A stretch of 34,908 bases of DNA from Alphaproteobacteria bacterium Ga0077535 (GTDB lineage Bacteria > Pseudomonadota > Alphaproteobacteria > Caulobacterales > Aquidulcibacteraceae). The stretch lies in the NCBI GenBank assembly GCA_001464425.1, contig LNEK01000023.1:1-34908 (forward strand), written 5' to 3'. The position numbers were made by a program, and so were the translations under genes. The first letter of the stretch is position 1. The number at the start of each line of letters is the position of its first letter. Of this stretch, positions 2,561 to 34,908 are shown piece by piece. The notes beneath the pieces were generated by a model. That model made no database searches, was not told the DNA's origin, and saw only the letters and a program-made list of their open reading frames with translations.

Positions 2561-3762
2561 CGCGCCTCCACAATGAGCTGCGCGGCGTAACGCCCCTCGC
2601 GCGGTTGCACGCTCTGCGCCTCGACTTCCATCGCACTCTGGCGTAGCGCTGCGATGAAGGCTTCGATCTCTGGCTGTTGCGGCGCCGAGATCACGAGCCG
2701 CACACTGCGCTGCGGCGACTCGTGCCGCACTTCGTCAATACGCACGCCGGGATGTGCGCGTAGCGCACTGATCAGCGGGGCCGATGTGACGATGACAGGG
2801 TGCCGCGTCGCTTGGTCCAGCGCGTTCGCGGCTGCGTTCACCTGCGCTCTGAGATTCACCACACGTCGCAGCTCCGGGCGCGCGGCGCGGAAGTCACGCT
2901 CAGCCGCGGCGAATACCTGATCCGCTGCACGGTCATCGCGCCATCCGGCGATTCCGAGGGAGCCGACCTGCAACAGAAGAGCGGCAGCTGCGAGCAGCGC
3001 GGCAAAGCGCCAAAGCTTGAACGGCTGCGCGCCCTGTTCCGCCACCGCGGCGAACGCGCCTTGCCGGAGATTGGGCGCCCAGCGCGGCGGCGACACTGCT
3101 GCGAGCGCAATCGTGTGGGCTGGATCGCTCGTTTGCCGGCGCTCCGTACCCGCACCGAAGCCAGCTCGCGCCGCATCGGCTTCACTTCCTTCGACAATAA
3201 TCCGCGCGTTGTCCGCCCCGACGCTTTTGCCCCATCGGCTCAGCACTGCAGCTGCGAGGTCTGGTTCGATCGAGAAGCCGCCTTGCGGGCCGGCCGTCAC
3301 GATTGCGCGGGCCGGCGTCAGCGCTACCACGATTGCGCCATCCTCGGCTGGCCACAGACAACAATCCAAAGTGACATAGCGTGGATCGCATCCAAGGACG
3401 CGCGCGCTTTCGAGCCATTGCGTCATCCGATCGGATGCAATCGCAGCGACCAGTCGCTTGCCATCGCCATCCTGCTGGGCGCCAACGGCGAAATGCATGG
3501 ACTCGCCGCTGGACAAATCAGCGCCGAACAGAGCTGCCGCGCCGGCCCGCGCCTGGGCTTCGGAGCGCGCTGGCAAACGAAGCTGCTTCAGCCGCGCGTC
3601 CGCACCTGGAATCACCAGCACAGTGCGCTGCGGCGCAGCTGCAGGTGGCCGCCGCTCGGTGCTAACACCCTCAGCAATGACGCGACCAGAATCGCTTACC
3701 ACCAGCCAAGACAGCGGCGCTGAGGGCGTTTCTGCGCCGATGAGGACGACGATCTCACTCAT
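2557..3762 (-). CDS. gspL: Type II secretion system protein GspL
   Basis: 401 residues, typical for GspL. Residues 1-230 form the cytoplasmic actin-like domain that holds the GspE ATPase at the membrane. A helix at about 250-270 (ALLAAAALLLQVG) crosses the membrane. The last 120 residues form a periplasmic domain with a coiled region and a ferredoxin-like fold that meets GspM. It overlaps gspK upstream and gspM downstream by 4 bases each, so translation of K, L and M is probably coupled. Confidence 0.9.
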   Translation of the reverse strand: MSEIVVLIGAETPSAPLSWLVVSDSGRVIAEGVSTERRPPAAAPQRTVLVIPGADARLKQLRLPARSEAQARAGAAALFGADLSSGESMHFAVGAQQDGDGKRLVAAIASDRMTQWLESARVLGCDPRYVTLDCCLWPAEDGAIVVALTPARAIVTAGPQGGFSIEPDLAAAVLSRWGKSVGADNARIIVEGSEADAARAGFGAGTERRQTSDPAHTIALAAVSPPRWAPNLRQGAFAAVAEQGAQPFKLWRFAALLAAAALLLQVGSLGIAGWRDDRAADQVFAAAERDFRAARPELRRVVNLRAQVNAAANALDQATRHPVIVTSAPLISALRAHPGVRIDEVRHESPQRSVRLVISAPQQPEIEAFIAALRQSAMEVEAQSVQPREGRYAAQLIVEAR

Positions 3763-4766
3763 AGAAGGTTCTTTCCCGCCCCGGCGCCAAACACACGGCG
3801 CACGACGGTGGCATTTCCAGCAACGCCTTGCTCGAGCAGGACAGCGGAATTCTCGCGCGCGTCAACGCGCACAACTTCCGTGCGCAGCACGAAGTAGCGC
3901 GTTTGCAACGAGAATTGAGCGCGACCAGCTTCGTTCAATTCAAACTCGCTCAAACTGGGATGACGTAAAAAATCGTCGATCGTCTCCCAACCGCCGCGAG
4001 GGCGGTCGCGAATGATCTGCGCGGCGCGCTCGATCCGCAGGCCGTCAACCGCCATCGCCAGCAGCGGCGCCTGCTCCGGGCGCAGGGTGTTCGGATTGAT
4101 CACATTCGGCGCGCTGGTGGGACGAACACACGCATAAGGCGCGATCGCCTCGACGATATTCGGTGTGAAACCGCGAATGTTACTGAGTTCGCTTATGTCG
4201 GCCAACAGCGCATTTGCGACGACATAGGCGGCCGCCTCGCCCGCATAGGCGCCATCTTCGGCGCCGCCAGCCATGGCATGGCTATCGCTGTCCAGCCAAT
4301 CCACAAGGGCGGCGCCAAGCCCCGTTTGTTGCTGGCCGACATCGACGGCATCGAGCAGCCGCGCGAATTGCACCAAGCCACCGGGGCTGACGAAGCGCTC
4401 GCCGCCGTCGTCCGTCACCACCATACTGTTCAGGTTGAAGCAATTGCCGCCATCCCACAGCTCGACTTCCATGCTGCCGTCATCAAGCGGAAAGACGAAT
4501 GGCCGCCCTTGCCACTCCGACTCGTCTGTTCGCGTCGTCTCGGCGCGACGCCGCAACTCGCCGAGCTGAGACGCCGCAAAAGCTTCGGCGCCCATCAAAT
4601 ACCAACGCGTCTGCTCCATGCGGACGAGATTGCTGGTGCGCCGCACACCCATATTGGCGGCGTCGACGACAACAACCGCAAGCATCGACATGATAGCAAG
4701 CATGGTGAGCACGGCGGCGAGCGCCGCGCCCTGGTCGTGCACCCAGCGGGGATTGGACCGCTTCAT
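3759..4766 (-). CDS. gspK: Minor pseudopilin GspK
   Basis: 335 residues, the large pseudopilin that caps the T2SS pseudopilus tip with GspI and GspJ. The leader ends in DQG followed by AALAAVL and a long hydrophobic helix. As in other GspK proteins there is no Glu at position +5 of the mature protein. The large insert typical of GspK follows, with segments FNLNSMV, WLDSDS and the later NPNTLRPEQAPLLAM helix-hairpin-helix-like region. Overlaps gspJ and gspL by 4 bases each. The peptidase encoded at 428-880 would be its processing enzyme. Confidence 0.92.
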   Translation of the reverse strand: MKRSNPRWVHDQGAALAAVLTMLAIMSMLAVVVVDAANMGVRRTSNLVRMEQTRWYLMGAEAFAASQLGELRRRAETTRTDESEWQGRPFVFPLDDGSMEVELWDGGNCFNLNSMVVTDDGGERFVSPGGLVQFARLLDAVDVGQQQTGLGAALVDWLDSDSHAMAGGAEDGAYAGEAAAYVVANALLADISELSNIRGFTPNIVEAIAPYACVRPTSAPNVINPNTLRPEQAPLLAMAVDGLRIERAAQIIRDRPRGGWETIDDFLRHPSLSEFELNEAGRAQFSLQTRYFVLRTEVVRVDARENSAVLLEQGVAGNATVVRRVFGAGAGKNLL

Positions 4767-5368
4767 GCGCCGAGCCCAACCAGCGCTTCGATACGAATTT
4801 CACCGTAGCGCGCCGACGTGAACACCAGCGCCACAGCGCGCGGCGGGCTCGCGCCGGCGCCGCCTGCCAACCATTGCTCACGCCAGGTCACGCCGTCAAA
4901 AAACTCAAAACGCGCTTCGCCTGCATCGGCGACGATGACGCGTTCGGCCATTTCAGACTCTTCGACGCGATCCAGACGTGTTCGGGTGCGGCGAACAATA
5001 GCGCCCTCGTCGAAATCGTACTCCACAAAGGCAAGGCGGGTCGCCGCCCCACGGTCGGGATCGGGTTCTCCGGCAGCGCGCACGAAGGCGAGCGGCGTGT
5101 CTGCGTCGCCGCCAATGAAGCGGGGCCGCCCTCGCCCATCCGGCTCGCGGACTTCGCGGCCAACATATTGCGCGAGATCAGCGGCAAGCAGCGCACGGGC
5201 GTTCTGCACTTCGCGCAGGGAAATCTCGGCCTCCGAGACACGGCGCTGCGTATCGACGCTCTGCGTGAGCATCAGCACCGAGCCCGCAGCAATCAGGCTA
5301 AATACAAAAAGCGACACCAGCGCTTCGACCAGCGTGAAGCCCGACTCGTGAGCGCGTGCTTCACTCAC
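4763..5368 (-). CDS. gspJ: Minor pseudopilin GspJ
   Basis: 201 residues with a short leader and the classical type IV prepilin motif ESG|FTLVEAL followed by a hydrophobic helix, then a beta-rich C-terminal domain containing the FFDGVTWREQW segment usual in GspJ. I chose the GTG at 5368 because it overlaps the gspI stop as GTGA; the open frame continues upstream to 5500 but lies inside gspI and is not protein-like. GspJ joins GspI and GspK at the tip of the pseudopilus. Confidence 0.9.
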   Translation of the reverse strand: MSEARAHESGFTLVEALVSLFVFSLIAAGSVLMLTQSVDTQRRVSEAEISLREVQNARALLAADLAQYVGREVREPDGRGRPRFIGGDADTPLAFVRAAGEPDPDRGAATRLAFVEYDFDEGAIVRRTRTRLDRVEESEMAERVIVADAGEARFEFFDGVTWREQWLAGGAGASPPRAVALVFTSARYGEIRIEALVGLGA

Positions 5369-5745
5369 GACGCCGCCTCCGGTGAAACGAAGAAGCCGCT
5401 CACTCGGCTGACCGGGCGCGCATCCGCGGGCCCAACCTCCACCACCGCGCGACGGGTCCGCGGCGATGGCGTCGCCGCAATCTCCGTCGTGACGCGCCAT
5501 TCGCGGCCCGCGTAACTGATCGTTTGCTCTCGCTGACCGACTGGACGTTGCGCTTGTGTGGCAACGATCTGCGTGAGTTCATTCTGGGCGACGACGTCCG
5601 CCAACGCACGCGTCTCGACACGCTGGAACGTGCTGAGCGAGTGCGATTGCAGCTGCACAAGGCCGACGCCCGCCATCGCGAAGACGGCGAGAGCGACGAG
5701 CGCCTCAACAAGCGAAAAGCCGGACTCATTCGACGCGTTGGACAT
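5365..5745 (-). CDS. gspI: Minor pseudopilin GspI
   Basis: 126 residues, normal for GspI. The leader is followed by ESG|FSLVEALVALAVF, and the MxxxGLVQLQ continuation of the N-terminal helix is typical. C-terminal domain contains the REQTISYAGREWRV strand region. The start lies 20 bases inside the end of gspH. GspI is thought to start assembly of the pseudopilus tip complex with GspJ and GspK, whose genes follow immediately. Confidence 0.9.
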   Translation of the reverse strand: MSNASNESGFSLVEALVALAVFAMAGVGLVQLQSHSLSTFQRVETRALADVVAQNELTQIVATQAQRPVGQREQTISYAGREWRVTTEIAATPSPRTRRAVVEVGPADARPVSRVSGFFVSPEAAS

Positions 5746-6211
5746 CGACCTCGCCCGCTTCGTTAAGCCGGACCCGCCAGCGCGCGCCGGCTTGGTCCAG
5801 GATGATGTTGGTAGCGGTAGCGCCGCCTAGCGGGTCAAATCGCGCAACGCGCGGATCGTCCGCAGCCGGCTCGACGCGCACCTGGAGATCAGCGTCCCAC
5901 GCGCGAAAGCCGAGTGGCGAGCGCTGCTCTGCAGGAAGCCAACCGTTGTCTTCCAGGCGCTCGAAACCGTAGCCTTCTTCAGTCACTATGAGCGAAAGCG
6001 AGCGATTGACGATCACGCTTTCTTCGCTCGCCAACGCTATACGCGCGGCGAGTTGCTCAGCGGCCAGCCGCGCATGGCGATCCGTCCCCGGCGCAAGCAG
6101 CATCACCACGCCAACCACAAGGCTGACGATCAACAACGCCACCATCGCTTCGACGAGGCTGACGCCTGCATCGGGTGTGAGGCGCTTACTGCCAGTTGCC
6201 GATATCGCCAT
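5726..6211 (-). CDS. gspH: Minor pseudopilin GspH
   Basis: 161 residues from the ATG at 6211; an upstream ATG at 6238 would add nine residues, and both lie inside the end of gspG. The prepilin motif reads DAG|VSLVEAMVALL: position +1 is Val rather than the usual Phe, while Glu at +5 is kept. A GspH-type beta domain follows (ALASEESVIVNRSLSL, then GFERLEDNGW). GspH links the minor-pseudopilin tip to the major pseudopilin GspG. Confidence 0.85.
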   Translation of the reverse strand: MAISATGSKRLTPDAGVSLVEAMVALLIVSLVVGVVMLLAPGTDRHARLAAEQLAARIALASEESVIVNRSLSLIVTEEGYGFERLEDNGWLPAEQRSPLGFRAWDADLQVRVEPAADDPRVARFDPLGGATATNIILDQAGARWRVRLNEAGEVDVQRVE

Positions 6212-6644
6212 CGACGCCCTCACCGCCTTCCTGCGCATCAGCGCCCAAGGAATAGAGATCGAATGGCCCGCGTTCGCCCGGCGTCACATATTCATACGGA
6301 CGCCCCCATGGGTCATCTGGCAAACGGCGGATGTAGGATTCGCGCGCTGCGCCTTCAGTCGGCGGGTTGACGAGCGCCTCCAGCCCCTGATCCATGCTGG
6401 GGTAGCGTGAATTGTCCAGACGATAGAGTTCGAGCGCCTGCTCAATGACGCGAATATCGGCGCGCGCCTTTTCGATCCGGGCCGTATCCTGGCTCGGCAG
6501 CACGTTGATGACCACGATAGCCGTGACCAAACCGATGATGACGATGACCACCATCATCTCCACCAGCGTGACGCCCGCCTCGGGATGGAGCGGGTCACGA
6601 ACTCGCCGCCCGGCGCGAAGCCTTTTGAGCAATGATCTCAGCAT
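6186..6644 (-). CDS. gspG: Major pseudopilin GspG
   Basis: 152 residues. The start at 6644, four bases after the gspF stop, gives a 23-residue basic leader ending PEAG|VTLVEMMVVIVIIG; Val instead of Phe at +1 is unusual. The rest is canonical GspG: ALELYRLDNSRYP, the DPWGRPY strand, and the C-terminal calcium-binding segment GADAQ...GGEGVDGDIGNW. GspG polymerises into the pseudopilus that pushes substrates through the secretin. An upstream in-frame extension to 6719 lies within gspF and is not protein-like. Confidence 0.95.
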   Translation of the reverse strand: MLRSLLKRLRAGRRVRDPLHPEAGVTLVEMMVVIVIIGLVTAIVVINVLPSQDTARIEKARADIRVIEQALELYRLDNSRYPSMDQGLEALVNPPTEGAARESYIRRLPDDPWGRPYEYVTPGERGPFDLYSLGADAQEGGEGVDGDIGNWQ

Positions 6645-6648
6645 CGTT

Positions 6649-7875
6649 TCATCCAATCGCCAGACGGTTGAGTTGCAGAATAGGCAGCATGATCGCCAAC
6701 ACGATCGAAGCCACGACAAGCCCCATCAGGACGATGATCGCGGGCTCCAAAAGGCTGAGCGCTGACGTCGTGAAGGCTTCAAATTCTTGGTCCAGGTGTG
6801 CGGCGGCTTTGTCCAGCATCGCCGGAAGCTCGCCCGCGTTCTCACCGCTTTGAGTCATGTAACAGACCATCGCCGGCATTACGTTCGAGCGGCGCATCAC
6901 TTGCGACAGCGGCTCGCCCTCTTCGATGCGATCCGCCATCACGCCGATGGCTTTGGCCACTTCACGGTTCGAGACGGAGCCCCGCGCAACGCGCACGCCT
7001 TCGAGCAGCGGCATGCCGGCGGAGACGAGCGTCGAGAGCGCGCGAATAAAGCGGCTCGCATTGACGGCAACGACCCAGCGCCCAATCAACGGCGCACGCA
7101 ACAAGAAGGCGTCAAACGCTGCGCGCACCGGCTCGCGTGAAAACAGAGTGCGCAAAAACCAGAGGCCGCCAACGAGCGCGAGCAGCAGCAGCGGCCATGA
7201 CGTGGTGAGGAAGCGCGACGTGAAGATCAGAATCTGCGTGATAAGCGGCAACTGTTGATCAAAGCGCTCGAATTGCTCGATGAGGCTCGGGACCACGAAA
7301 ATCATCAAACAGACGACAACGGTCAGCGCGACTAAGCTGAGCACCGCCGGATAGATCAGCGCCGTTTGGATTTTGCTGCGCAGAGCTTGAGCCCGCTCGA
7401 GATAGTCCGCCAGCTTGAGCAGAACCGGGCCCAACCGGCCCGATTGTTCGCCGCCAAGCACAGCGGCGCGATAAAGGCCGTTAAAGCTCCACGGATGACG
7501 GTTCAGCGCATCGGCGAGTCGCTGGCCCTCAATCACGCCTTCCTGCACATCTGCTACAATGCGCCGTGCCGCGGGCTGCTCCTGCTGCGCCGCGATCATC
7601 GCCAAGGCTTCGTCAACGGGCACAGAAGCGTCGATCAAGGTCGCGAGCTGCCGGGTCACCATCACCAAGGCTTTGTGCGAGAGCTTGGCGCTCCGCGACA
7701 AACGCCTATCGGGCGCCGCCTCGCGCCGCTGCCCTCCGCCCCTTGCATCGACTTCGATGGGGAGCAGACGTTTGCGCACCAACAGCGCCCGCGCGCTGGC
7801 CTCGTCGACAGCCTCCAGACCACCGCTCTTGCGGCGACCATCAGCGTCGATCGCGACGTACTGGTAGCGGGGCAT
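6649..7875 (-). CDS. gspF: Inner-membrane platform protein GspF
   Basis: 408 residues, typical length. Begins MPRYQYVAIDADGRRKSG, the usual GspF start, and holds two T2SSF repeats (about residues 70-195 and 275-395), each ending in hydrophobic helices (ALIYPAVLSLVALTVVVCL; EPAIIVLMGLVVASIVLAI). It is the polytopic core of the assembly platform that couples GspE ATP hydrolysis to pseudopilus growth. It begins 6 bases after the gspE stop and is followed closely by gspG. Confidence 0.95.
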   Translation of the reverse strand: MPRYQYVAIDADGRRKSGGLEAVDEASARALLVRKRLLPIEVDARGGGQRREAAPDRRLSRSAKLSHKALVMVTRQLATLIDASVPVDEALAMIAAQQEQPAARRIVADVQEGVIEGQRLADALNRHPWSFNGLYRAAVLGGEQSGRLGPVLLKLADYLERAQALRSKIQTALIYPAVLSLVALTVVVCLMIFVVPSLIEQFERFDQQLPLITQILIFTSRFLTTSWPLLLLALVGGLWFLRTLFSREPVRAAFDAFLLRAPLIGRWVVAVNASRFIRALSTLVSAGMPLLEGVRVARGSVSNREVAKAIGVMADRIEEGEPLSQVMRRSNVMPAMVCYMTQSGENAGELPAMLDKAAAHLDQEFEAFTTSALSLLEPAIIVLMGLVVASIVLAIMLPILQLNRLAIG

Positions 7876-7881
7876 CGGTCG

Positions 7882-9387
7882 CTAACCTCCCTGCGCGCTC
7901 GCCGCGCGCAGGATGTCGCTTAGGGAAGTCACGCCGGCCGCGACGCACTTTAAACCGCTTCGCCGTAGCGGATCGGCCCGACGAAACGCATACGCGGCCA
8001 TCTCTTGTTCGGTGGCGCCCGCATGGATCATGCGGCGGATTTCATCATCGACGATCACAAATTCGTAGAGGCCGATCCGGCCAACGTAGCCGGCGCCGCG
8101 ACATTGCGGACAGCCCGCCGCTTCGTAGACGGTTGCGCTCTCCGCGCCGATGGTGGCCAACATAGCCTTTTCTTGCGGCCCAATGACTGCAGGCGTTTTG
8201 CATGCCGGACACAGACGGCGCACCAGACGCTGCGCGACGATGGCCCTTAATGTCGATGCGAGCAGATACGGCTCAACGCCCATGTCCTTCAGGCGCGTGA
8301 TCGCGGCGACGGCGTCATTGGTGTGGACAGTGGAAAACACGAGGTGGCCGGTGAGGCTCGCCTGCACCGCGATTTGCGCGGTTTCGGCGTCGCGGATTTC
8401 CCCGACCATTACGACATCAGGATCCTGGCGCAGAATCGCGCGCAAGCCCGCAGCGAACGTCATGCCGATCTTTGCGTTCACTTGCGTTTGACCGACGCCG
8501 TCGACTGCGTATTCGATCGGATCTTCGACAGTCAGAATATTGCGCGCACTATCGTTGAGCAGATTGAGCGCAGCATAGAGCGTCGTCGTTTTGCCTGACC
8601 CCGTTGGCCCTGTGACGAGAACGATGCCGTTTGGTGTTTCAAGCGCTGCTTTGAACTTGGTGAGGATTTCATCGCTCATGCCAAGCGCATCGAGGCTGCG
8701 TAGCCCCTGATCTTTATCGAGAATACGCATCACCACGCGCTCGCCGTAGCGGGACGGCAACGTAGAGACGCGCACATCGACGCTGCGTCCGCCCAAGGTC
8801 AGCGAGATACGCCCATCCTGGGGCAGCCGCTTTTCGGCAATATCGAGCCGCGCCATGACCTTGATGCGCGACACGAGACGGGCCCGCAATTGCGCCGGCG
8901 CACGCAACACCTCGCGCAGCACGCCATCGATGCGTAGCCGCACCACGACGGCTTGTTCCGCCGGTTCAATATGTATGTCGGAGGCGCTCTGGCTTATTGC
9001 TTCGGAGATCAGGCCGTTGATCAGCCGGATGATCGGCGCATCGTCCTGGCTGTCGAGCAAATCAGCGGCGGCGCCGACGCTGTCGGCCAACGCATCAAGA
9101 TCATCGAATGACTCGGCGATTGATCGCGCGGCTTCACTCGACACGGCGTAGCGCTTCGACAGCGCCTCATCAAACGCCTGCGCGGTCATATCGACCACTT
9201 CGAATGGGGCGCCCAGAACGCGTCGCGCTTCAATAAGCCCGGTCGGATCGGCGCCTGCCCGCACGCCGACACGCCATGGTCGCTCATCAGTGAGCAGAAC
9301 AAGGCCGGAAGCTTTGGCGAAGGCGTAGTCTAACCGCGGCGAAGCACTTGCCGAGGTTTTGTCGAGGTCAGTCCTGCTGGAGCCCAT
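7882..9387 (-). CDS. gspE: Secretion ATPase GspE
   Basis: 501 residues from ATG at 9387, 13 bases after the gspD stop; GTG one codon earlier is possible. Hexameric cytoplasmic ATPase driving pseudopilus assembly. Seen directly: Walker A GPTGSGKT at residues 260-267, Asp box and Walker B around 322-333 (DPDVVMVGEIRD), His box FSTVHTND near 351, and the zinc-binding pairs C393xxC396 and C426xxC429. The N-terminal domain (1-110) would dock on GspL. The chain is intact with no missing catalytic residue. Confidence 0.96.
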   Translation of the reverse strand: MGSSRTDLDKTSASASPRLDYAFAKASGLVLLTDERPWRVGVRAGADPTGLIEARRVLGAPFEVVDMTAQAFDEALSKRYAVSSEAARSIAESFDDLDALADSVGAAADLLDSQDDAPIIRLINGLISEAISQSASDIHIEPAEQAVVVRLRIDGVLREVLRAPAQLRARLVSRIKVMARLDIAEKRLPQDGRISLTLGGRSVDVRVSTLPSRYGERVVMRILDKDQGLRSLDALGMSDEILTKFKAALETPNGIVLVTGPTGSGKTTTLYAALNLLNDSARNILTVEDPIEYAVDGVGQTQVNAKIGMTFAAGLRAILRQDPDVVMVGEIRDAETAQIAVQASLTGHLVFSTVHTNDAVAAITRLKDMGVEPYLLASTLRAIVAQRLVRRLCPACKTPAVIGPQEKAMLATIGAESATVYEAAGCPQCRGAGYVGRIGLYEFVIVDDEIRRMIHAGATEQEMAAYAFRRADPLRRSGLKCVAAGVTSLSDILRAASAQGG

Positions 9388-9400
9388 GACGGTGTCGCGG

Positions 9401-11437
9401 CTAGCGCGCCTCCGGCGCCGGCACGGGCGGCGCAACCGTTACAACAGGCGGCGCAACCGTTGGCGCGACGATTTGGGGGCTCTGCCGATTCATCTCTTCG
9501 GCGAGCTGACGCGCCACGATCGGGTCGAGATCGGAACCATTGAGCCGCTGATAGCGCTCGCGCGTTATCGCTTCGGCTTGGCTCGGCGTGTTGACGATAG
9601 TCGGACGCAGAAACACCATAAGGTTCGTCCGCCGCCGCGATTGGCCCTCGCTGCGGAACAAGCGACCGGCAATGGGGATGCGCCGAAGGCCCGGAATGCC
9701 TGCGTCCGTGCGCTGGATGTCATCTTGAATGAGGCCGCCCAGGACAATGATCTGACCGGCGTCGACTTGGACGACGGTTCTGATCTCGCGGCGATTGGTG
9801 ATCAGGTCGGTCGAGCTCGAGACGATCTGACCAAAGATGCTGGAGACTTCTTGACGTATCTCAAGGCGGATCGCCCCACCTTCGCTAATTTGCGGCCGCA
9901 CTTCTAGCTGGACGCCAACATCTGCGCGTTCGATCGTTCGGAACTGGTTTTCGAGGTTTTCGCCGACCGCTTCACCCGTGGTGATTGGAATCTGCTGACC
10001 GACGAGGATAGAGGCTTGTTCGTTGTCTAACGTGAGCACCGACGGAGTCGACAGCACATTCGATTCACGGTCTTCTGCGAGTGCATTCAGCAGAACGCCG
10101 AAGATCGATCCGTCATCATTGACACCACCGCCGCCGAGCAGCAGGCCATTGGAGCCAATCAATGAATTGATCGCGGCGCGACGCAGATCGGCTATTGCAT
10201 CGCTGTCGCCGCTGTCGGCGTCATCATCGTCGCGGATAAGCGCAGCACCGGTAAGGGCCAACAAGTTTGGCGCGGAGCCGCCGTAAGAGTTAGACAAAAA
10301 CGGCAACGCATCTTCGCCGCTTCGCCCGCTCGCCACGTATTGAAGGCCAAGTTCGCGCGCCAGATCGTCTGATACTTCTACGATGATCGCTTCCACGAGG
10401 ACTTGCTGGCGGCGCACATCGAGAGAACGCACAACGCCGGCCAATGCTTCCTGAGTTTCCGGATCAGCGCTAATGATGAGCGAGTTGGTCGCCGCGTGAT
10501 GGGCGATATTTGCCCGCCGGTTGACCGCGGCGCCAGCATCCTCGCCGGGAGCCGCCGCTAGCGACGTCGACAACTGCTGAAGGATCGGAACAACTTCTGC
10601 GGCTACGGCGTAGCGGAGCGGGATCACCTGCACAGCGGACTGGAAATCCGCGCGCTGGTCGAGTTCCTGAATGAGTGGCGCCAATTGCTCCAGCGTGCGT
10701 TCGTCGCCGCGTAGCACCAGCATGTTGCTGCTGGCCACAGGCACGGCCTGCACCATCGAACGGCCTTCTTCACCAACCGCCGAGGCCAAGCTCCGGGCGA
10801 CGCGCGCCATCTCGTCAGCCGACGTGTTGCGCAATTGAATCGAGCGCATGGTCGCGTTGTCACGATCAAGCCGCCCCACGATCTGCCGCACGCGATCGAT
10901 AGTGCCGCCAAAATCGACCACCACGATCGAATTGCCGCGACGATTTACTGTCGCCTGCCCGCGCTCCGACAGCACCGGACGAATGGCGGCGGCAACGGAT
11001 TCGGCGTCAGCGAAGCGCAGGCTGAACACCTGCGACACGTAGGTATTTTCAGTTGCGCCGCCGCCATCCGCAGCGGACGGCTCACGCGCCGCAACCTCAG
11101 CAGGCACAATCCGGTAGGCACCGCTGGAAGTCGGCACGGCGACAAATCCGTTGACCCGAAGCGTCGACATGAAAACGTCCATGAGCTCGCGCTCGGACAT
11201 TGATTGCTGCGAAAGCACCGTCACACGCCCGCTGACGCGGGGATCAATGATGAAGGTGCGCCCGGTCGCGTTCGAAACGTCCTCGATGAATGCGCGAATT
11301 TCGACTTCGCGCATCGCAACGGCGCCGCTTGGCGCCGCCTCCGGCTGCGCTTGCTGTGCGCGGGCTATTGGCGCCAGAAGGGCAGCACTCGCAAGCCCTG
11401 CAAACAGGGCTTGCACCGATCGCTTTACCGATTTCAT
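9401..11437 (-). CDS. gspD: Outer-membrane secretin GspD
   Basis: 678 residues, cleavable signal peptide ending near ARAQQ. Periplasmic N0 to N3 domains occupy about residues 35-345, then the secretin domain with the VLSTPSVLTLDNEQASILVG strand and the IPGLRRIPIAGRLF motif near the C-terminus. It forms the outer-membrane gate of the T2SS. The Asp/Asn-rich insert around residues 375-435 (DDDDADSGDSD and a Gly-rich stretch) is the variable part of the secretin domain. The C-terminus ends in a Pro/Val-rich tail (VAPPVVTVAPPVPAPEAR). The start overlaps gspC by 4 bases (ATGA). Confidence 0.96.
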   Translation of the reverse strand: MKSVKRSVQALFAGLASAALLAPIARAQQAQPEAAPSGAVAMREVEIRAFIEDVSNATGRTFIIDPRVSGRVTVLSQQSMSERELMDVFMSTLRVNGFVAVPTSSGAYRIVPAEVAAREPSAADGGGATENTYVSQVFSLRFADAESVAAAIRPVLSERGQATVNRRGNSIVVVDFGGTIDRVRQIVGRLDRDNATMRSIQLRNTSADEMARVARSLASAVGEEGRSMVQAVPVASSNMLVLRGDERTLEQLAPLIQELDQRADFQSAVQVIPLRYAVAAEVVPILQQLSTSLAAAPGEDAGAAVNRRANIAHHAATNSLIISADPETQEALAGVVRSLDVRRQQVLVEAIIVEVSDDLARELGLQYVASGRSGEDALPFLSNSYGGSAPNLLALTGAALIRDDDDADSGDSDAIADLRRAAINSLIGSNGLLLGGGGVNDDGSIFGVLLNALAEDRESNVLSTPSVLTLDNEQASILVGQQIPITTGEAVGENLENQFRTIERADVGVQLEVRPQISEGGAIRLEIRQEVSSIFGQIVSSSTDLITNRREIRTVVQVDAGQIIVLGGLIQDDIQRTDAGIPGLRRIPIAGRLFRSEGQSRRRTNLMVFLRPTIVNTPSQAEAITRERYQRLNGSDLDPIVARQLAEEMNRQSPQIVAPTVAPPVVTVAPPVPAPEAR

Positions 11438-12285
11438 AGCGAGCCGCCGACGTCCAACGTGACCGCATGACGTGCACCGCCACGCTCAATCTCAAGCACA
11501 ACTTGCGAGGCACTGGCAGCAGCCACTGCGGCGGCCAAATCTTCAGCCCCCTGCCCGTTCACGCTGATCACGAGATCGCCAGCACGCAAACCTGCGCTGG
11601 CGACCGCTTCAGGCAAAGCGTCGGCCAAGCGCCACCCGCGCGTTCCGTCCATCCCGGCCTCGACATGCATGAGAGTGCGCGCGAGCCACGCCCGATCCGC
11701 TGTGGAAATAGTCGCTGACGTGGCGCTCGCGTCCACCGAGGACGTAAGCACCGGCGCGCCAGGTGCGGGCTCAAGCCCCATCATCGCGCGGGCGAACGAA
11801 AACGCCGAAGCCGCTGTCATTTCCAATCGCCGTTCGCCGCCTGCGTACGAGAGGGAAACATAACCGACGCCGACTTCACCGAGCACGACGCCGTCAACCA
11901 CTTCTTGGCCAACTAGAAATGCACGCTGCCCACCGTCGGGCAGCGTGAACATGGCGCCGCTGCGTGTCGGATCACTCGCCATGCGCAGGCCATTGAGCTG
12001 AATACTCGACAGCGTCGCGTTGACAGCGTGCGCGGCGGCGTCACTCGCATCGGGAGCAAATGGCGAGCGCACGTCAGCGGTTTCCAGAAACGCATCGGAT
12101 GGCGTATCGCCGCCCGCGGTTACAGTTGCACTAGCGGGACCAGGTGAAAGCAACGTCCAGCCGGCCTGCGCACAACCAAGCGCCACTGCGGCAAGCAAGA
12201 GCGCTTCTACACTCGGGCGCAGAGCGCCGTTCAAGCGCTCACCTAGAGGTCGGCCAAGACGCCCCGCGTCTCTACTCATCATCAT
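11434..12285 (-). CDS. gspC: T2SS linker protein GspC with PDZ domain
   Basis: 283 residues. A cytoplasmic start, one helix at about 27-47, a homology region (about 65-165; RSPFAPD, LNGLRMASDP, AFLVGQEVVDGVVL) that contacts the secretin N0 domain, and a C-terminal PDZ domain (about 205-280; GWRLADALPEAVASAGLRAGDLVISVNG) probably involved in substrate selection. Three consecutive Met codons (12285, 12282, 12279) can start it. First gene of the operon; its promoter must lie between 12286 and about 12440. Confidence 0.93.
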   Translation of the reverse strand: MMMSRDAGRLGRPLGERLNGALRPSVEALLLAAVALGCAQAGWTLLSPGPASATVTAGGDTPSDAFLETADVRSPFAPDASDAAAHAVNATLSSIQLNGLRMASDPTRSGAMFTLPDGGQRAFLVGQEVVDGVVLGEVGVGYVSLSYAGGERRLEMTAASAFSFARAMMGLEPAPGAPVLTSSVDASATSATISTADRAWLARTLMHVEAGMDGTRGWRLADALPEAVASAGLRAGDLVISVNGQGAEDLAAAVAAASASQVVLEIERGGARHAVTLDVGGSL

Positions 12286-20324: not shown

Positions 20325-20327
20325 GTG

Positions 20328-22316
20328 ATGGACGACGAAGACAGATTCGAAGGCGATGTCAGCCGACGTCGCGCGAAACGCACCCCGGACGCCGGCTCGA
20401 TGTTTCGCCCGCCGTCCGCCGCCAGCTCCAAGCGCGTCGCCGCGCGCGCACGCGCGGCCTGGTACAATCGCAGCCGCGGCGCGGGCGCCGTCAAGCTGAA
20501 GCACGAGCGGCCCGCCGGCAGCCAGCGCGTGATCGTGAAGATACACCCCAAGGTCCACGCTAAGGCGGCGGGCGGCGCGGGGTCGCTGATGCGGCACACC
20601 CTCTATGTCGAACGCGACGGCGCCGGCCGCGATGGCGACGCGGTCCAGGTGTTTGACCGCGAGCACGATCGGGCCGACGGCGCTGCCTTCGTCGAACGCT
20701 GCGAAGACGACCGGCACCATTTCCGGGTCATCATCTCGCCTGAGCGCGGCGCAGCCATCGACGACCTCAAGGGCTACACCCGCGACCTGATGCGAACCGT
20801 GGAATCGGACCTCGGCACCCGTATCGACTGGATCGCGGCCGAGCATCATGACACCGGCCACGCCCACGTCCATTTGCTGATGCGGGGCGTCCGTGCAGAT
20901 GGGCGCGACCTGGTCATCCCGCGCGCTTATGTTTCCCACGGTTTCCGCGAGCGGGCGGAGCGCCTCGCCACCGAGCTGCTTGGGCCGCGCCTTGAACCCG
21001 ACTGCGCCGATCGCGCGGTGAAGCAGGAACGCCTTACTGAGCTGGACCGCGAGCTCGTCGCCCGCTCGCGCGGCCAAGAGATCGCGATGAGCGCGCTGCC
21101 CGACGATGGCGTGCGCGCCGCCCGGCTGGTGCAGCGGCTCAACCGGCTGGAAGAGCTGGGTCTTGCTGAACCGGCTCGCGCCGGGGTGTGGAGGCTCGAT
21201 GCCCAGCTTGAGGAGAAACTCATCCGCCTCGGCGATCAGCGCGACCGCGAGCGCGCCACCGCGCGGTTGCTGGCGCAGGAGCAACGCGGGCTCGAACCGC
21301 AGCGCACACGAGAACTAGAAGCGGCGCATTCAAGCCAGCGCGTCACCGGACGTCTGGTTGGCTTCGAGCGTCTAGGCGAGGACGCACGCGGACCGCAGCT
21401 TATCGGCGTGGAAGGCATCGACGGCAGATTTTGGACCGCGCGCGTTGCTGGTCCTGAAGATCTGCGCGGGCTCGCTGGCGTCGAGCGCGGCGCCATCGTC
21501 GAGATCGAGCGTGCGGCGCCGGACTTGAAGGCGTCAGACCGCACGATTTGGGAGATCGCGCAGGAGAACGATCTTACCTATTCGGCGGCGCTGCATCGGC
21601 AAACGCGGCCGACCGATCGCGCGAACTACATCGAAATGCACGAACGCAGGCTGGAAGCGCTCCGGCGCGACGGTGTGGTCAGCCGCGAGCGCGACGGCAC
21701 GTTCTATCTACCCCACGACTACCCTACCCAAGTGGCGATGCGCGAAGGGCGGGGCGGACGCGAAAGCGCCCGCGTGACGCTGATCGATCCGCATCCGCTG
21801 GATCGGCAGGCTGAGTACCCCGGTCCGACTTGGCTCGACCGCATCGCAGACGGCCGCGCAGACATAAGCCAGATGCGCAGCGAAGGTTTTGGCGCTGAGA
21901 TCGGCAAAGTCTGGAAGCAACGAGAAGCGACGCTAGAGAAGCTCGGCTTGGGCGAGCGCGGCCCAGACGGGTTCCAGGCCATGCCCGGCTGGCGCGACAG
22001 CCTGACTTCGCTTGAGCAGGACGCTCTTCGCGAGCGCATCGAGCGCGACACGGGGCGCGTGGCGCATTTCGCGCGCGACGGCGAGCGTGTGCACGGGCTC
22101 TACACGGGTCGCATCCATCTCGCCGAACAAAGCTTTGCATTGATCGAACACGATCGCACCGCAACTCTGACGCCTTGGCGGCCGGCGATGGACCGCGCGC
22201 TCAATCAAGTGGTAGCGGGCCAAGTCAAAGGCATGAGTTTCGACTTCAAATACGGTCGCGGCGCCGAGAAAGAGATCACCAAGGCGCTTGGGATCGACAT
22301 AGGCGGGCGCGGATAG
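20328..22316 (+). CDS. VirD2-type relaxase with DUF3363 domain
   Basis: 662 residues, normal for this family. It nicks DNA at an origin of transfer and leads the strand into a recipient. The N-terminal relaxase half shows HFRVIISPE at 131-139 and the metal-binding histidine motif HHDTGHAHVH at 173-182. Which Tyr is catalytic is not certain from sequence; Y93 and Y46 are candidates. The C-terminal half is the DUF3363 region (RVTGRLVGFERL, then DLTYSAALHRQ, and the end STVSFDFKYG-like MSFDFKYGRG). GTG at 20325 directly precedes ATG 20328. No coupling protein or T4SS gene follows in the window, so the element may be mobilisable and not self-transmissible. Confidence 0.9.
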   Translation: MDDEDRFEGDVSRRRAKRTPDAGSMFRPPSAASSKRVAARARAAWYNRSRGAGAVKLKHERPAGSQRVIVKIHPKVHAKAAGGAGSLMRHTLYVERDGAGRDGDAVQVFDREHDRADGAAFVERCEDDRHHFRVIISPERGAAIDDLKGYTRDLMRTVESDLGTRIDWIAAEHHDTGHAHVHLLMRGVRADGRDLVIPRAYVSHGFRERAERLATELLGPRLEPDCADRAVKQERLTELDRELVARSRGQEIAMSALPDDGVRAARLVQRLNRLEELGLAEPARAGVWRLDAQLEEKLIRLGDQRDRERATARLLAQEQRGLEPQRTRELEAAHSSQRVTGRLVGFERLGEDARGPQLIGVEGIDGRFWTARVAGPEDLRGLAGVERGAIVEIERAAPDLKASDRTIWEIAQENDLTYSAALHRQTRPTDRANYIEMHERRLEALRRDGVVSRERDGTFYLPHDYPTQVAMREGRGGRESARVTLIDPHPLDRQAEYPGPTWLDRIADGRADISQMRSEGFGAEIGKVWKQREATLEKLGLGERGPDGFQAMPGWRDSLTSLEQDALRERIERDTGRVAHFARDGERVHGLYTGRIHLAEQSFALIEHDRTATLTPWRPAMDRALNQVVAGQVKGMSFDFKYGRGAEKEITKALGIDIGGRG

Positions 22317-30424: not shown

Positions 30425-30462
30425 CCAGAGCCTGCACCTTCCCACAATGGGAAGGTCAACAT
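30425..30462 (-). promoter_or_regulatory. CueR operator and promoter of the Cu ATPase gene
   Basis: Perfect dyad ACCTTCCCA-CAA-TGGGAAGGT at 30436-30456, matching the CueR/HmrR operator plan. On the minus strand it lies between a TTGACC -35 box and a CAGGCT -10 box with a 19-base spacer, the over-long spacing that MerR-family activators correct by twisting DNA. The divergent cueR gene starts 27 bases to the right. Confidence 0.9.
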
Positions 30463-30921: not shown

Positions 30922-31176
30922 CTAGTGCTGAGGCGTCGCTTCGCCAGCACGCATTTCGGCGCAGTGGCGCATCATGTCCTCGTGGCTCATGCCGCCGTGC
31001 TCTGCGGGATTGTGATCGGCATGCGCAGCCGCTCCATCGCCGTGATGCTCTTGCATCATCTGACAATGACGCATCATCTCTTCATGGCTCATCGCGCTAT
31101 GGTCCATGCCTTGCGCGGTCGCGCAACCGCCCAGCAGAGCAAGCGACGCCAGCGCGGCCATCCAGCCCATTTGCAT
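30922..31176 (-). CDS. Met/His-rich copper-binding lipoprotein candidate
   Basis: 84 residues from ATG 31176, preceded by GGAGAGA at a good distance. The signal ends in LLGGC, giving a lipoprotein. The mature part is full of Met and His and contains a repeated unit: MSHEEMMRHCQMM and MSHEDMMRHCAEM. Such motifs bind Cu(I) or Cu(II) in the periplasm. The gene follows the DUF411 gene by 14 bases, so the two probably share a transcript, and it converges with cueR. Not a named family that I recognise. Confidence 0.75.
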   Translation of the reverse strand: MQMGWMAALASLALLGGCATAQGMDHSAMSHEEMMRHCQMMQEHHGDGAAAHADHNPAEHGGMSHEDMMRHCAEMRAGEATPQH

Positions 31177-31190
31177 AATCTCTCTCCAGA

Positions 31191-31685
31191 TCAACCGCGC
31201 GCCGGATAGCGCGCGAATACGTGGCGGGCGCCGTCGCCCGAGAATGCAATAACCGCGAACGCATCGCGGCCCATGCCAGCTTGTTCCATGCCTGGAGAGC
31301 CGATCGGCATCCCGGGCACGGCGATGCCTCGGACGCCCGCCGGCCGCGTCTCAATGAGCCGCAGCGCGTCCTCCACGGGCACGTGACCTTCGATGGCAAA
31401 GCCCGCCACCGTTGCGGTGTGACAAGAAGCAAGATCGAGGGGCACGCCGAGATTCTGTTTCACAGCGTTCATGTCGGCCTCGTCGGTCACCGTGACGGTG
31501 AAACGGCCACTGCGGCGCATGACCTCCACCCAGGCGAGGCAGCATCCACAACCCGCGTCACGGCGCACATGCATGGCGTGGCGTGTTGGCTGCGCCAGCG
31601 CCATCGGCGCCTGAAGTGCTATTGCGCCGCCAGCCGCCAAGGCCAACGCCGCGCGTCGATCGAGGCCTCTTTTTCTTTGCTGCAT
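31191..31685 (-). CDS. DUF411 periplasmic metal-binding protein
   Basis: 164 residues. It starts with a twin-arginine-like signal (LDRRAALALAAGGAIAL ... ALAQ). The mature domain opens with RDAGCGCCLAW (C46, C48, C49), the hallmark of DUF411, and later has SCHTATVAGFAIEGHVP and GIAVPGMPIGSPGMEQ, also typical. DUF411 proteins are found in copper and silver resistance clusters and are thought to bind or carry the metal in the periplasm. Has GGAG 8 bases before the ATG. Transcribed divergently from the sensor-sigma operon. Confidence 0.88.
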   Translation of the reverse strand: MQQRKRGLDRRAALALAAGGAIALQAPMALAQPTRHAMHVRRDAGCGCCLAWVEVMRRSGRFTVTVTDEADMNAVKQNLGVPLDLASCHTATVAGFAIEGHVPVEDALRLIETRPAGVRGIAVPGMPIGSPGMEQAGMGRDAFAVIAFSGDGARHVFARYPARG

Positions 31686-31725
31686 GCGTGGCTCCAGGGT
31701 CTTGTCACCCTCTATACGCAGCCCC

Positions 31726-31757
31726 TACGCGATCCCCTCCTCGGACCCTCTGAGGGA
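31726..31757 (-). promoter_or_regulatory. ECF-type promoter of the DUF411 operon
   Basis: On the minus strand CAGAGGGT is followed after 14 bases by GCGTA (plus-strand 31730-31726), 41 bases before the DUF411 start. The same pattern, with the same spacing, occurs at two other places in the copper block. The CCCTC-T-GAGGG dyad at 31746-31756 serves both directions. Confidence 0.6.
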
Positions 31758-31776
31758 AATCAATGGCTCTCGCGTA
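31746..31776 (+). promoter_or_regulatory. ECF-type promoter of the cnrYXH-like operon
   Basis: CTGAGGGA at 31750-31757, 14 bases, then GCGTA at 31772-31776, placed 27 bases before the first gene. It suggests that the ECF sigma factor encoded third in the operon drives its own expression, as is usual for such systems. Confidence 0.65.
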
Positions 31777-31803
31777 AGTTATGCGCAGGACAGAGAGTGC
31801 CCA

Positions 31804-32079
31804 ATGCGAACCGATCTTGATGAAATGCTGGCGTCATGGCGCCGGCGTGCGTCCCAAGCCGACCTTAGCCAGCTTGAACCGCGTGTTTGGGCCGCGATCG
31901 CTGCATCGCGTGCGCCCGATGTCGCGGGCCTATTGAGCATTCGTGCAGCCTTTGTCGCGGCGGTCATGATCGTCGGGGTCGCCGCAGGGGCCGGCTCCAG
32001 CGCCACGCCAGCGGAGGCCTCGCCCTTCTCTGTGCATTCGGCCTATGCGCCGTCCACGCTGCTTGAGGGCAGGCCATGA
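31804..32079 (+). CDS. CnrY-like membrane anti-sigma candidate
   Basis: 91 residues. A charged cytoplasmic part (1-43; DLDEMLASWRRRASQADLSQLEPRVWAAI), one transmembrane helix (about 45-64) and a short periplasmic tail. Size, topology and place (first gene before a CnrX-like sensor and an ECF sigma, with 4-base overlap to the next gene) match CnrY of Cupriavidus, which holds the sigma factor CnrH at the membrane. Direct sequence similarity to CnrY is weak, so the call rests on architecture. ATG 31804 is preferred because the sequence upstream is promoter. Confidence 0.65.
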   Translation: MRTDLDEMLASWRRRASQADLSQLEPRVWAAIAASRAPDVAGLLSIRAAFVAAVMIVGVAAGAGSSATPAEASPFSVHSAYAPSTLLEGRP

Positions 32080-32510
32080 AGCTCTCCTGGCAAGGATTGA
32101 TCGTCACAGCTTTTGTCGCCTTCGCCGCTGGGCTCGGGGGCGTATGGGTCGGGCTGCACGCCTTTCACCAAAGCACGCCAGGACTTCACGACATCGTCCA
32201 CGAGCGCCTTGACCTGACGGAAGAACAACTCGGCCGCATCGAAACCATCGAAGCCGATTTCGCCACCCGCCGCCAAGCGCTTGAGCTTGAGATGCGTGCG
32301 GCCAACGCCGACCTTGCCGCAGCCATTCGCGCCGAGCACGGCTATGGCCCCGGCGTCACCGCCGCGATCGAGCGCTTCCATCACGCCATGGGCGAGCTTC
32401 AATCGGAGACAATCCGTCATGTCTTCGCCATGCGCGAGGTGCTGACGCAAGACCAGCAGGCGATATTTGACGCAACCGTTGTTGAATCGCTGACCGCTGA
32501 ACAGCAATGA
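32076..32510 (+). CDS. CnrX-like periplasmic metal sensor
   Basis: 144 residues: N-terminal anchor helix (8-28), then an all-helical periplasmic domain of the metal-resistance (CnrX/ZraP-like) type. The five metal ligands of CnrX (H42, H46, E63, H119, M123) have counterparts H38, H42, E59, H115 and M119, all with the same spacing. It should bind metal outside and release the sigma factor through its membrane partner. Which metal it senses is not given by these ligands alone; the setting suggests copper while the ligand set is that of a Ni/Co site. Overlaps both neighbours by 4 bases (ATGA). Confidence 0.82.
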   Translation: MKLSWQGLIVTAFVAFAAGLGGVWVGLHAFHQSTPGLHDIVHERLDLTEEQLGRIETIEADFATRRQALELEMRAANADLAAAIRAEHGYGPGVTAAIERFHHAMGELQSETIRHVFAMREVLTQDQQAIFDATVVESLTAEQQ

Positions 32511-33067
32511 AGGATGACGATGAGCGCAGCGACGCCGCGCTCATCGCGGCCGTGTTGGCCGGCGAAGAGCGCGCATTCACGCAGCTGATGCGCCGCCACA
32601 AGGAAGAGCTTTATCGGTTTGTGCGCGCCTATTCAGGCGATCCCAGCGAAGCCTTGGACCTCGTGCAGGAGAGCTTCGTGGCGGCTTGGCGCGCGCTGAA
32701 GCGATTCGACGCGCAGCGTTCGTTCAGCGTTTGGCTAAAGCGCATTGCCATCAATAAGTGCCGCGATTGGCGAAGACGTCGCGCGGTGCGTCACTTCTTC
32801 TACCGCGCCGAAGACATAGACAAACCAGGCATGGAGATCGCCGAACCACCGGCCGCGGCCGGAGAGCGCGAAGCCGAACTCACTCGGTTGGACACAGCCA
32901 TTGCAGCGCTCCCCGACGGCCTCAAGGCGCCGCTGCTGTTGTCACTGACGGGCGAGACTTCCCATCGCGAAATCGGCAATGCGCTCGGGATCACGGCAAA
33001 GGCGGTCGAGGTGCGCATCTATCGCGCGCGGCGCGCGCTCGCTGCGGCGTTGGGGACCGATGACTGA
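32507..33067 (+). CDS. ECF RNA polymerase sigma factor (CnrH-like)
   Basis: 186 residues. Sigma region 2 (about 22-90; FTQLMRRHKEELYRFVRAYSGD, ALDLVQESFVAAWRAL, WLKRIAINKCRDWRRRR) and region 4 (about 125-180; LPDGLKAPLLLSLTGETSHREIGNALGITAKAVEVRIYRARRAL), no extra domains. Overlap with the sensor gene fits a sequestered, signal-released sigma factor. Three promoter-like sites with one shared pattern lie in this block, before its own operon, the DUF411 operon and the oxidase gene, and are its likely targets. Confidence 0.92.
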   Translation: MKDDDERSDAALIAAVLAGEERAFTQLMRRHKEELYRFVRAYSGDPSEALDLVQESFVAAWRALKRFDAQRSFSVWLKRIAINKCRDWRRRRAVRHFFYRAEDIDKPGMEIAEPPAAAGEREAELTRLDTAIAALPDGLKAPLLLSLTGETSHREIGNALGITAKAVEVRIYRARRALAAALGTDD

Positions 33068-33100
33068 GAGGCGTTCCAATCCAAACTACCGGCCTTGCCC

Positions 33101-33131
33101 CCCCCTGAGGGATCAGCCGGCGCCGTGCGTA
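33101..33131 (+). promoter_or_regulatory. ECF-type promoter upstream of the oxidase
   Basis: CTGAGGGA at 33105-33112, then 14 bases, then GCGTA at 33127-33131. The CCC(T/C)CTGAGGGA block matches 31746-31757 at 11 of 12 positions with identical spacing to GCGTA. It lies 87 bases before the oxidase start and just upstream of the CueR operator. Confidence 0.6.
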
Positions 33132-33154: not shown

Positions 33155-33185
33155 TTGACCTTCCAGCGATGGGAAGGTGCACACC
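33155..33185 (+). promoter_or_regulatory. CueR operator and promoter of the oxidase
   Basis: TTGACC (33155-33160) is followed by a 19-base spacer. The operator ACCTTCC-N7-GGAAGGT spans 33158-33178 with perfect 7-base arms. It closely resembles the operator before the Cu ATPase gene and points the same way as the oxidase gene. Confidence 0.85.
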
Positions 33186-33217: not shown

Positions 33218-34908
33218 GTGGCGATAGAGCGCCGGACATTGTTGAAGGCGATGGCCAGCGGAGCGGGCTTCGCGGGCGTGCAAGCCTTGTTCCCGGCGTG
33301 GGCGCAAACCGGATCGCGTGGTGTAGCGCCGACGCTCGCCACCCTCAGCGGGCCTGACATCGCGCTCACCGTCGGTCACTCGCCCTTCAATGTCGGTGGC
33401 CGCACCGGTCACGCCATCACCGTAAACGGCACGCTGCCGGCGCCGCTCATTCGCCTGCGCGAGGGCCAAAACGTACGGCTCTCCGTCACCAACACATTGG
33501 ACGAAGACACCTCGATCCATTGGCACGGCATCCTCTTGCCATTTCAAATGGACGGCGTGCCCGGCATCAGCTTTCCAGGCATCCGTCCGGGCGAAACCTT
33601 CGTCTATGAATTCCCCGTCCGCCAGGCGGGCACCTATTGGTATCACAGCCACTCAGGTCTTCAGGAAGCGATGGGCCACTTCGGTCCAATGATTATCGAT
33701 CCTGCCGGCGCCGATCCTGTCGCGTACGACCGCGAGCATGTGATCGTGCTCTCCGACTGGAGCTTCCTCCACCCGCATGAAATTCTGCGCCGCCTCAAGG
33801 CGAGCCCCGGCTATTTCAACCAGCAGCGCACGACCGTTGCTGGCCTGCTCTCCGGCGAAGACCGCATGAGCGCTTCCGAGCGGCGCATGTGGGCCGAGAT
33901 GCGCATGGACCCGCGCGACATCTCCGACGTCACAGGCTCGACCTACACCTATCTCGTGAATGGTCACGGGCCGCAGGAAAATTGGACGGGATTGTTCGAA
34001 CCCGGCGAGCGCGTGCGCCTTCGCATCATCAACGCCTCGGCGATGACGAACTTCAACGTGCGCATTCCGGGTCTGCCCATGACCGTCGTGCAGGCTGACG
34101 GTGAGAATGTGCGCCCCGTTGAAGTTGATGAATTCCAGATCGCGGTCGCCGAAACCTATGACGTGATCGTCAGCCCGCGCGACAATCGCGCCTACACGAT
34201 CGTTTCAGAAGCCGTGGATCGCTCGGGGCTTGGCCGCGCTACGCTTGCGCCGCGCCTTGGCATGAGCGCTGAAGTGCCCCCGCTCCGCCAAGTCCCCAAC
34301 CTCACCATGCGCGACATGGGTATGGACATGGGCGCCATGGATCACGGCGCCGGCGGCATGAACCATGGATCGATGGATCATGGCGACATGAACATGCGCG
34401 ACCGCTCGCTCGCGCCCCCGAACATGGCAGTGGGTGTGGGTGTGCAAAGCATTTCGCCGATGCCCGACAACCGACTGGCGGAGCGTCCGCTCGGGTTAGA
34501 GAACGAGCCCCACCGCGTCCTCGTCTACACCGATCTCGTCGCGCTTAGTCCCAATCGCGACACGCGGGCGCCATCGCGCACGCTTGAGATCCATCTCACC
34601 GGCAATATGGAACGCTATATGTGGGGCTTCGACGGACGCCGCTTCAGCGAGATCGTCGAGCCTATCCGCTTTGAGCGAGACGAACGTGTGCGCGTCACAC
34701 TCGTGAACGACACGATGATGCAGCATCCGATCCATCTGCACGGACACTTCTTCGAATTGGTCAATGGGCACGCTGGGCATCAGCCCTTGAAGCACACTGT
34801 GAACGTCGCGCCGGGCGGACGTCTGTCCTTCGATCTCACGGCCGACGCGCCTGGCGATTGGGCGTTTCACTGCCACATGATGATGCACATGCACTCCGGC
34901 ATGTTCAA
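33218..34908 (+). CDS. Multicopper oxidase, CopA family (cut by window edge)
   Basis: 563 codons are present and the frame is open at the right edge. It starts with GTG at 33218 behind GAGGAG; the N-terminus IERRTLLKAMASGAG is a twin-arginine signal, so the enzyme is exported folded with copper. Copper-ligand motifs seen: HWHG at 101, YHSHSG at 142-147, HPIHLHGH, and HCHMMMHMHSGM near the edge; only a few residues are missing. A Met/His-rich insert (MRDMGMDMGAMDHGAGG and following) is typical of periplasmic Cu(I) oxidases of copper resistance. It would oxidise Cu(I) to less toxic Cu(II). Named CopA in pco/cop systems, distinct from the ATPase also called CopA. Confidence 0.93.
   Translation, partial: MAIERRTLLKAMASGAGFAGVQALFPAWAQTGSRGVAPTLATLSGPDIALTVGHSPFNVGGRTGHAITVNGTLPAPLIRLREGQNVRLSVTNTLDEDTSIHWHGILLPFQMDGVPGISFPGIRPGETFVYEFPVRQAGTYWYHSHSGLQEAMGHFGPMIIDPAGADPVAYDREHVIVLSDWSFLHPHEILRRLKASPGYFNQQRTTVAGLLSGEDRMSASERRMWAEMRMDPRDISDVTGSTYTYLVNGHGPQENWTGLFEPGERVRLRIINASAMTNFNVRIPGLPMTVVQADGENVRPVEVDEFQIAVAETYDVIVSPRDNRAYTIVSEAVDRSGLGRATLAPRLGMSAEVPPLRQVPNLTMRDMGMDMGAMDHGAGGMNHGSMDHGDMNMRDRSLAPPNMAVGVGVQSISPMPDNRLAERPLGLENEPHRVLVYTDLVALSPNRDTRAPSRTLEIHLTGNMERYMWGFDGRRFSEIVEPIRFERDERVRVTLVNDTMMQHPIHLHGHFFELVNGHAGHQPLKHTVNVAPGGRLSFDLTADAPGDWAFHCHMMMHMHSGMF

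Follow-up and report, generated by a model that had tools for sequence, protein, structure and literature searches.

Does the sigma factor encoded among the copper genes of this locus control them, and which metal would set it free? A preliminary description of the window, by which we mean the whole stretch of 34,908 nucleotides analyzed here, had tied a sensor-sigma operon and the neighboring copper genes together by one promoter signature. That link is strongly supported by the sequence comparisons below, namely co-occurrence with the sigma gene, rank in a de novo count, targets in relatives and likeness to the cnr promoters, and the signature is very probably read by the sigma factor encoded among the copper genes. 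What did not hold, or holds in part, are the minus-strand site, the metal and the control of the oxidase gene by this sigma factor alone. The features are collected in Table 1.

Table 1. Predicted promoters, genes and CueR-type boxes of the locus, in window coordinates.
Feature	Position	Strand	Remarks
Predicted sigma promoter, cnrY/X/sigma-like operon	31750..31776	+	GAGGG 31752-31756, GCGTA 31772-31776; predicted start ~31785
Predicted sigma promoter, DUF411 operon	31715..31739	-	GAGGG 31739-31735, GCGTA 31719-31715; predicted start ~31706
Predicted sigma promoter, multicopper oxidase gene	33105..33131	+	Exact string and matrix score 25.2; predicted start ~33140
Minus-strand site of the preliminary description, judged a chance overlap	31726..31752	-	Matrix score 3.1; not conserved; dyad absent in relatives
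CnrY-like putative anti-sigma factor	31804..32079	+	91 aa, one hydrophobic stretch
CnrX-like periplasmic metal sensor	32076..32510	+	Metal_resist family
ECF sigma factor	32507..33067	+	Closest solved relative CnrH; regions 2 and 4
CopA-type multicopper oxidase	33218..34906	+	TIGR01480, 819.9 bits, cutoff 478.95; cut by contig end
DUF411 protein	31191..31685	-	Pfam PF04214
Small His/Met-rich protein, lipoprotein-like start	30922..31176	-	Next gene after DUF411; no Pfam match
CueR-type box CCTTCC-N7-GGAAGG	33159-33177	+	Before oxidase gene, downstream of sigma element
CueR-type box	30437-30455		Between CueR gene and copper ATPase gene

Relation of the sensor-sigma operon to CnrYXH

CnrYXH is the model periplasmic nickel/cobalt switch, and judged by its sequence the system in the window is a relative of it. 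Among solved structures, the sigma factor finds CnrH first (E=1e-27; next 2.5e-17), to which it is 35% identical (tblastn), and the best matches of the sensor are CnrX and NccX (phmmer, E about 2e-15 to 3e-15). Taking the CnrX ligands to be H42, H46, E63, H119 and M123, the alignment places all five nickel/cobalt ligand positions in the window sensor (H38, H42, E59, H115 and M119). Of 89 aligned sensors, among them CnrX and NccX, 87 read HHEHM at these positions; the other two read DHEHM, one from contig C12 of the same genome and one from genome G097. As in CnrYXH of Cupriavidus metallidurans CH34 (pMOL28) and in NccYXH, the genes follow one another as anti-sigma, sensor and sigma and overlap at their ends, here by ATGA at 32076-32079 and 32507-32510. 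The putative anti-sigma factor suits a CnrY by its place, size and single hydrophobic stretch, but it cannot be aligned to CnrY (profile comparison, probability 1.1%) and has no Pfam match. The neighbors differ as well: oxidase, DUF411 and copper ATPase genes in place of the CnrCBA or NccCBA pump, and a scan of 20 window ORFs turned up no RND pump, a result that bears on identity with the cnr and ncc determinants and not on the type of switch.

Two further copper-linked systems were considered. SigF-NrsF of Caulobacter crescentus is a copper-induced ECF regulon with the targets DUF692, DUF2282 and DoxX (PMC8224329), and it shares with our locus an ECF sigma factor under membrane control, there in a related group of bacteria, and the link to copper stress; its anti-sigma factor and targets are others, no CnrX-type sensor is named in the part of the source available, and none of DUF692, DUF2282, DoxX and NrsF occurs among the 20 window ORFs scanned. 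As neighborhood and sequence differ, this identity was set aside. CorE of Myxococcus xanthus is likewise an ECF sigma factor tied to multicopper oxidase and copper ATPase genes, which it activates (PMC10141476, PMC3107203), and according to the accessible part of PMC10141476 its own Cys-rich C-terminal extension is what senses copper; identity with CorE was set aside because the window sigma factor has no such extension and only one Cys. In the available parts of the open-licence literature we found neither a copper-linked CnrYXH system nor such a motif, which does not establish absence from print, the subscription and ECF classification literature being outside this scope.

Promoter signature and its distribution

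The dyad GAGGG-N15-GCGTA stands upstream of both the cnrY/X/sigma-like operon and the multicopper oxidase gene. The longer string of the preliminary description, C(A/T)GAGGG(A/T)-N14-GCGTA, is present letter for letter at all three places claimed (three exact matches in the window; 0 expected and 0 in 100 dinucleotide shuffles). Its flanking letters are not the consensus: at 172 unique sites, GAGGG is preceded by T (78%) or C (18%) and followed by A (49%) or G (36%).

The spacing was examined in 957,582 bases from 80 loci, the best 80 of 206 in which a relative of the sigma factor was found. Hyphomonadaceae, Caulobacteraceae and sphingomonads supplied most of these loci, and close relatives were kept among them. 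GAGGG-Nk-GCGTA gives 243 matches at k=15 and 0-10 at any other spacer length in the range 8-24. Note that all 80 loci stand behind this count, the locus count that follows and the target assignment below, whereas dereplicated sets were used for the de novo dyad counts (52 or 53 loci) and for the spacing of promoter pairs (23 loci). In the de novo count of all 5-mer pairs GAGGG-N15-GCGTA ranks first: of the 52 dereplicated gaps that precede the operon, 37 contain it. Once coding DNA is added, a different dyad draws level with it, both at 38 of 53 loci. The scans of orthologous loci and of the whole genome that had been proposed as checks bore the motif out: at least one exact site is present in 76 of the 80 loci, and a relaxed search of the genome itself gives 13 matches, its control 1. 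Seventy-eight of the 80 loci have enough upstream DNA for the operon to be examined; an exact site lies 756-807 bases upstream of the sigma gene in 62 of them and is absent before the operon in 16, 12 of which have a one-mismatch version 751-785 bases upstream of that gene.

Four of the 13 relaxed matches fall in the window and three at a second copy of the locus on contig C22, one precedes a CusF gene (C12:38999-38975) and one a DUF308 gene (C12:70217-70193); three of the remaining four are chance-like in score. The matches on C31, on C40, where the site sits inside a 1139-aa frame, and at C12:83866 score at or below 1% of the training sites and were treated as chance. A match at C12:82847-82822 (minus strand) is directed against a CMAS-type gene, and its 26 bases are identical in G058, G097, G112 and G236. 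The window (34906) and C22 (87825) break off at one and the same frame point of the oxidase gene, leaving 563 aa in each, as expected if sequence common to the two copies broke the assembly.

With a matrix trained on 85 sites of relatives (control: 15 Markov-shuffled windows, maximum 15.6), the two plus-strand sites reach 25.4 before the operon and 25.2 before the oxidase gene, and a site at 31739-31715 (minus strand) is third best in the window at 21.4, the fourth scoring only 7.2. The operon site is kept in the C22 copy and in locus L020. By the rule from the mapped cnr promoters, the three sites would give leaders of 19 bases for the operon, 78 for the oxidase gene and 21 for the DUF411 gene.

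The motif goes with the sigma gene across genomes. Among 249 genomes of the host's order, in which the gene was called at E<=1e-25, a stricter pattern (YGAGGGR-N13-YGCGTA, with the reversed pattern as control) occurs 274 times in the 87 genomes with the gene (mean 3.15, control 46, mean 0.53), at least once in 83 of them, versus 51 times in the 162 genomes without it (mean 0.31, control 57, mean 0.35), at least once in 40. The link is weak in a more distant family of 96 genomes, where 17 with the gene hold 16 sites (10 of the 17 with one; control 6) and 79 without it hold 30 (25 of the 79 with one; control 26). When the search was widened to the class, 5 of 289 genomes proved to have the sigma gene, and 79 of 72,556 plasmid records contain a sensor match, 6 of the 79 being Cupriavidus. 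On a plasmid of S. yanoikuyae SHJ the motif lies upstream of copC, of the oxidase gene and of the sigma operon. On one of Sphingobium chlorophenolicum, copC and the oxidase gene are each preceded by an exact site and the operon is not. A Caulobacter plasmid encodes a related sensor, but ahead of its operon nothing matches even when two mismatches are allowed.

These counts bear on whether the motif could be the binding site of another regulator, be it an activator or some other sigma factor, that accompanies the clusters. Binding by the window's own sigma factor is something that we infer, and three further sigma relatives in the genome, 82%, 60% and 42% identical, could share its sites. Against this, it is the sigma gene itself with which the motif co-occurs, and both the two-part form and the position fit a promoter. 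The mapped cnr promoters, moreover, have like elements: at the transcription start positions of cnrY and cnrC in C. metallidurans CH34, taken from the available part of PMC9045368, the pMOL28 sequence reads GAGGGG (cnrC) and AAGGGG (cnrY). Between the first five of these letters and CGTATA lie 17 bases, and transcription begins 12 bases past the C of CGTA. The window has a spacer one base shorter (16 bases to CGTA). We thus regard control by another regulator as unlikely. The 60% and 42% relatives are encoded within C12:43500-63000, the former with only one-mismatch versions of the motif upstream, and the same segment encodes the C12 sensor that reads DHEHM.

Predicted divergent promoter pair and target genes

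The preliminary description had placed three sites, each pointing at a gene, and had made one CCCTC-T-GAGGG dyad (31746-31756) the upstream element for both directions of the divergent gap. The two plus-strand sites stand; the minus-strand site at 31752-31726 does not. With the same 85-site matrix it scores 3.1, which is background, versus 21.4 for the overlapping match at 31739-31715, a site that a looser search found and that was missing from the first list. In the alignment with the C22 copy and L020, the elements at 31739 and 31719 are conserved and the earlier site is not. We therefore assign the predicted minus-strand promoter to 31739-31715, with which the idea of a shared dyad falls. 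The string itself is present in the window, yet it is found at none of the plus sites of the 80 related loci and the C22 copy, none of the relatives' plus sites has a CCCTC in the 6 bases before it, and of 64 pairs a single one, the window's own, shows the 2-bp spacing. The shared dyad is thus highly improbable, and both it and its minus site were rejected.

The conserved feature is a pair of promoters set closely back to back. Among the 82 loci analyzed for pairs (80 relatives, the window and the C22 copy), 65, window and C22 copy included, have a plus site at the operon, and in 48 of the 65 an exact divergent site lies no more than 120 bp away. After dereplication to 23 loci, the distance from GAGGG to GAGGG is 9-18 bp in 20 and 11-14 bp in 15; the 13 bp of the window lies inside this usual spacing.

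A gene could be assigned downstream of 188 of the 243 sites in relatives, 59 at the sigma operon and 129 elsewhere, leaving 55 without assignment. Most of the assigned targets other than the operon are copper-type genes, a result that is partly built in, because the loci were fetched around the sigma gene. The 129 divide into 51 multicopper oxidase, 44 CopC, 19 copper ATPase, 6 Cys-rich Csp-like protein (a label given by the look of the sequence, in which Pfam has no match), 4 His/Met protein, 2 DUF411, 2 DUF305 and 1 CusF. Under looser clustering, 20 sites precede members of a single family, the longest of which matches DUF305. The minus sites of L022 and L028 and the plus site of L052 precede long frames of other kinds, one resembling polysaccharide pyruvyl transferase and the others acyltransferase-like by eye, perhaps surface-sugar genes.

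In the window the block also includes a copper P-type ATPase gene and a CueR gene. The same contig carries type II secretion genes (GspL, F, E, D and C, minus strand) and a DUF3363/relaxase-like gene, at 2557-12282 and 20325-22313. CueR, a cytosolic one-component activator, differs in kind from the sensor-sigma system and is represented by its gene and two CueR-type boxes (0.02 expected), one of which would add CueR to the sigma promoter of the oxidase gene; it begins 28 bases past the last base of the sigma element, with 27 bases in between. Boxes of this type come after 9 of 53 sites at oxidase genes, those of the window, the C22 copy and L020-L026, and after none of the other 44. The oxidase gene is therefore probably not under the sigma factor alone, and in the window's group the oxidase would answer to both a periplasmic and a cytosolic sensor.

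Possible inducing metal and reach of the proposed regulon

Overall, we propose, with a probability of roughly 85%, that 31804-33067 encodes a CnrYXH-type system whose freed sigma factor directs polymerase to (T/C)GAGGG-N15-GCGTA at its own and at copper genes. The products would be a membrane anti-sigma factor, a periplasmic metal sensor and an ECF sigma factor; by analogy with CnrYXH, metal on the sensor would loosen the anti-sigma factor and release the sigma factor, which would bring RNA polymerase to these promoters. The operon would be driven from 31752 (plus strand), a positive feedback, the DUF411 operon from 31739 (minus strand) and the multicopper oxidase gene from 33107 (plus strand). 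Outside the window, the second copy of the locus and the CusF gene would belong to the same regulon.

The name copper regulon, given in the preliminary description, fits the target genes and is less secure for the inducing metal, the sensor keeping the nickel/cobalt ligand set of CnrX. Copper may be the signal, alone or besides nickel and cobalt, and nickel is a serious alternative. With the same promoters and sigma factor, the sensor might answer mainly to nickel or cobalt, or to several metals, the copper genes then being part of a broad metal alarm and CueR the copper-specific input; we give this somewhat less than an even chance. It is favored by the near-invariant ligand set and by CnrX, which signals nickel and cobalt through M123 (PMC7689651, available part). 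In Sphingobium sp. ba1 the CopA, CopB and CopC genes are induced by 10 mM nickel (PMC5557971, available part), and on the S. yanoikuyae plasmid copC and the oxidase gene, like the sigma operon, have the motif in front; taken together, the two fit a nickel-responsive or mixed-metal sensor. However, ligand sets alone do not fix the choice of metal, a CopS-type two-component system is likewise induced in ba1 and, as far as the available part of that source goes, the ba1 copAB operon starts with other genes than that of the S. yanoikuyae plasmid.

A bolder and more doubtful extension is that a CnrX-type sensor with unchanged nickel/cobalt ligands has been wired to a copper-protection regulon by way of a promoter code that has hardly changed, so that in many Alphaproteobacteria copper genes would be induced by nickel in addition to copper. 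The two promoters, usually 11-14 bp apart, would be too close for two polymerases at once, so that regulator and divergent copper operons would compete for each released sigma factor.

The reading that we prefer, a sigma factor released by a CnrYXH-type switch onto its own and copper promoters, together with the genomic and plasmid counts, points to a widespread CnrYXH relative, chromosomal and plasmid-borne, attached to copper genes. Because its promoter code can be read, its regulons can be predicted from DNA. It raises the question of how a metal site can keep its ligands and yet be used for a nickel pump in one lineage and for copper genes in a second, and it may offer an explanation for the induction of copA, copB and copC by nickel in Sphingobium.
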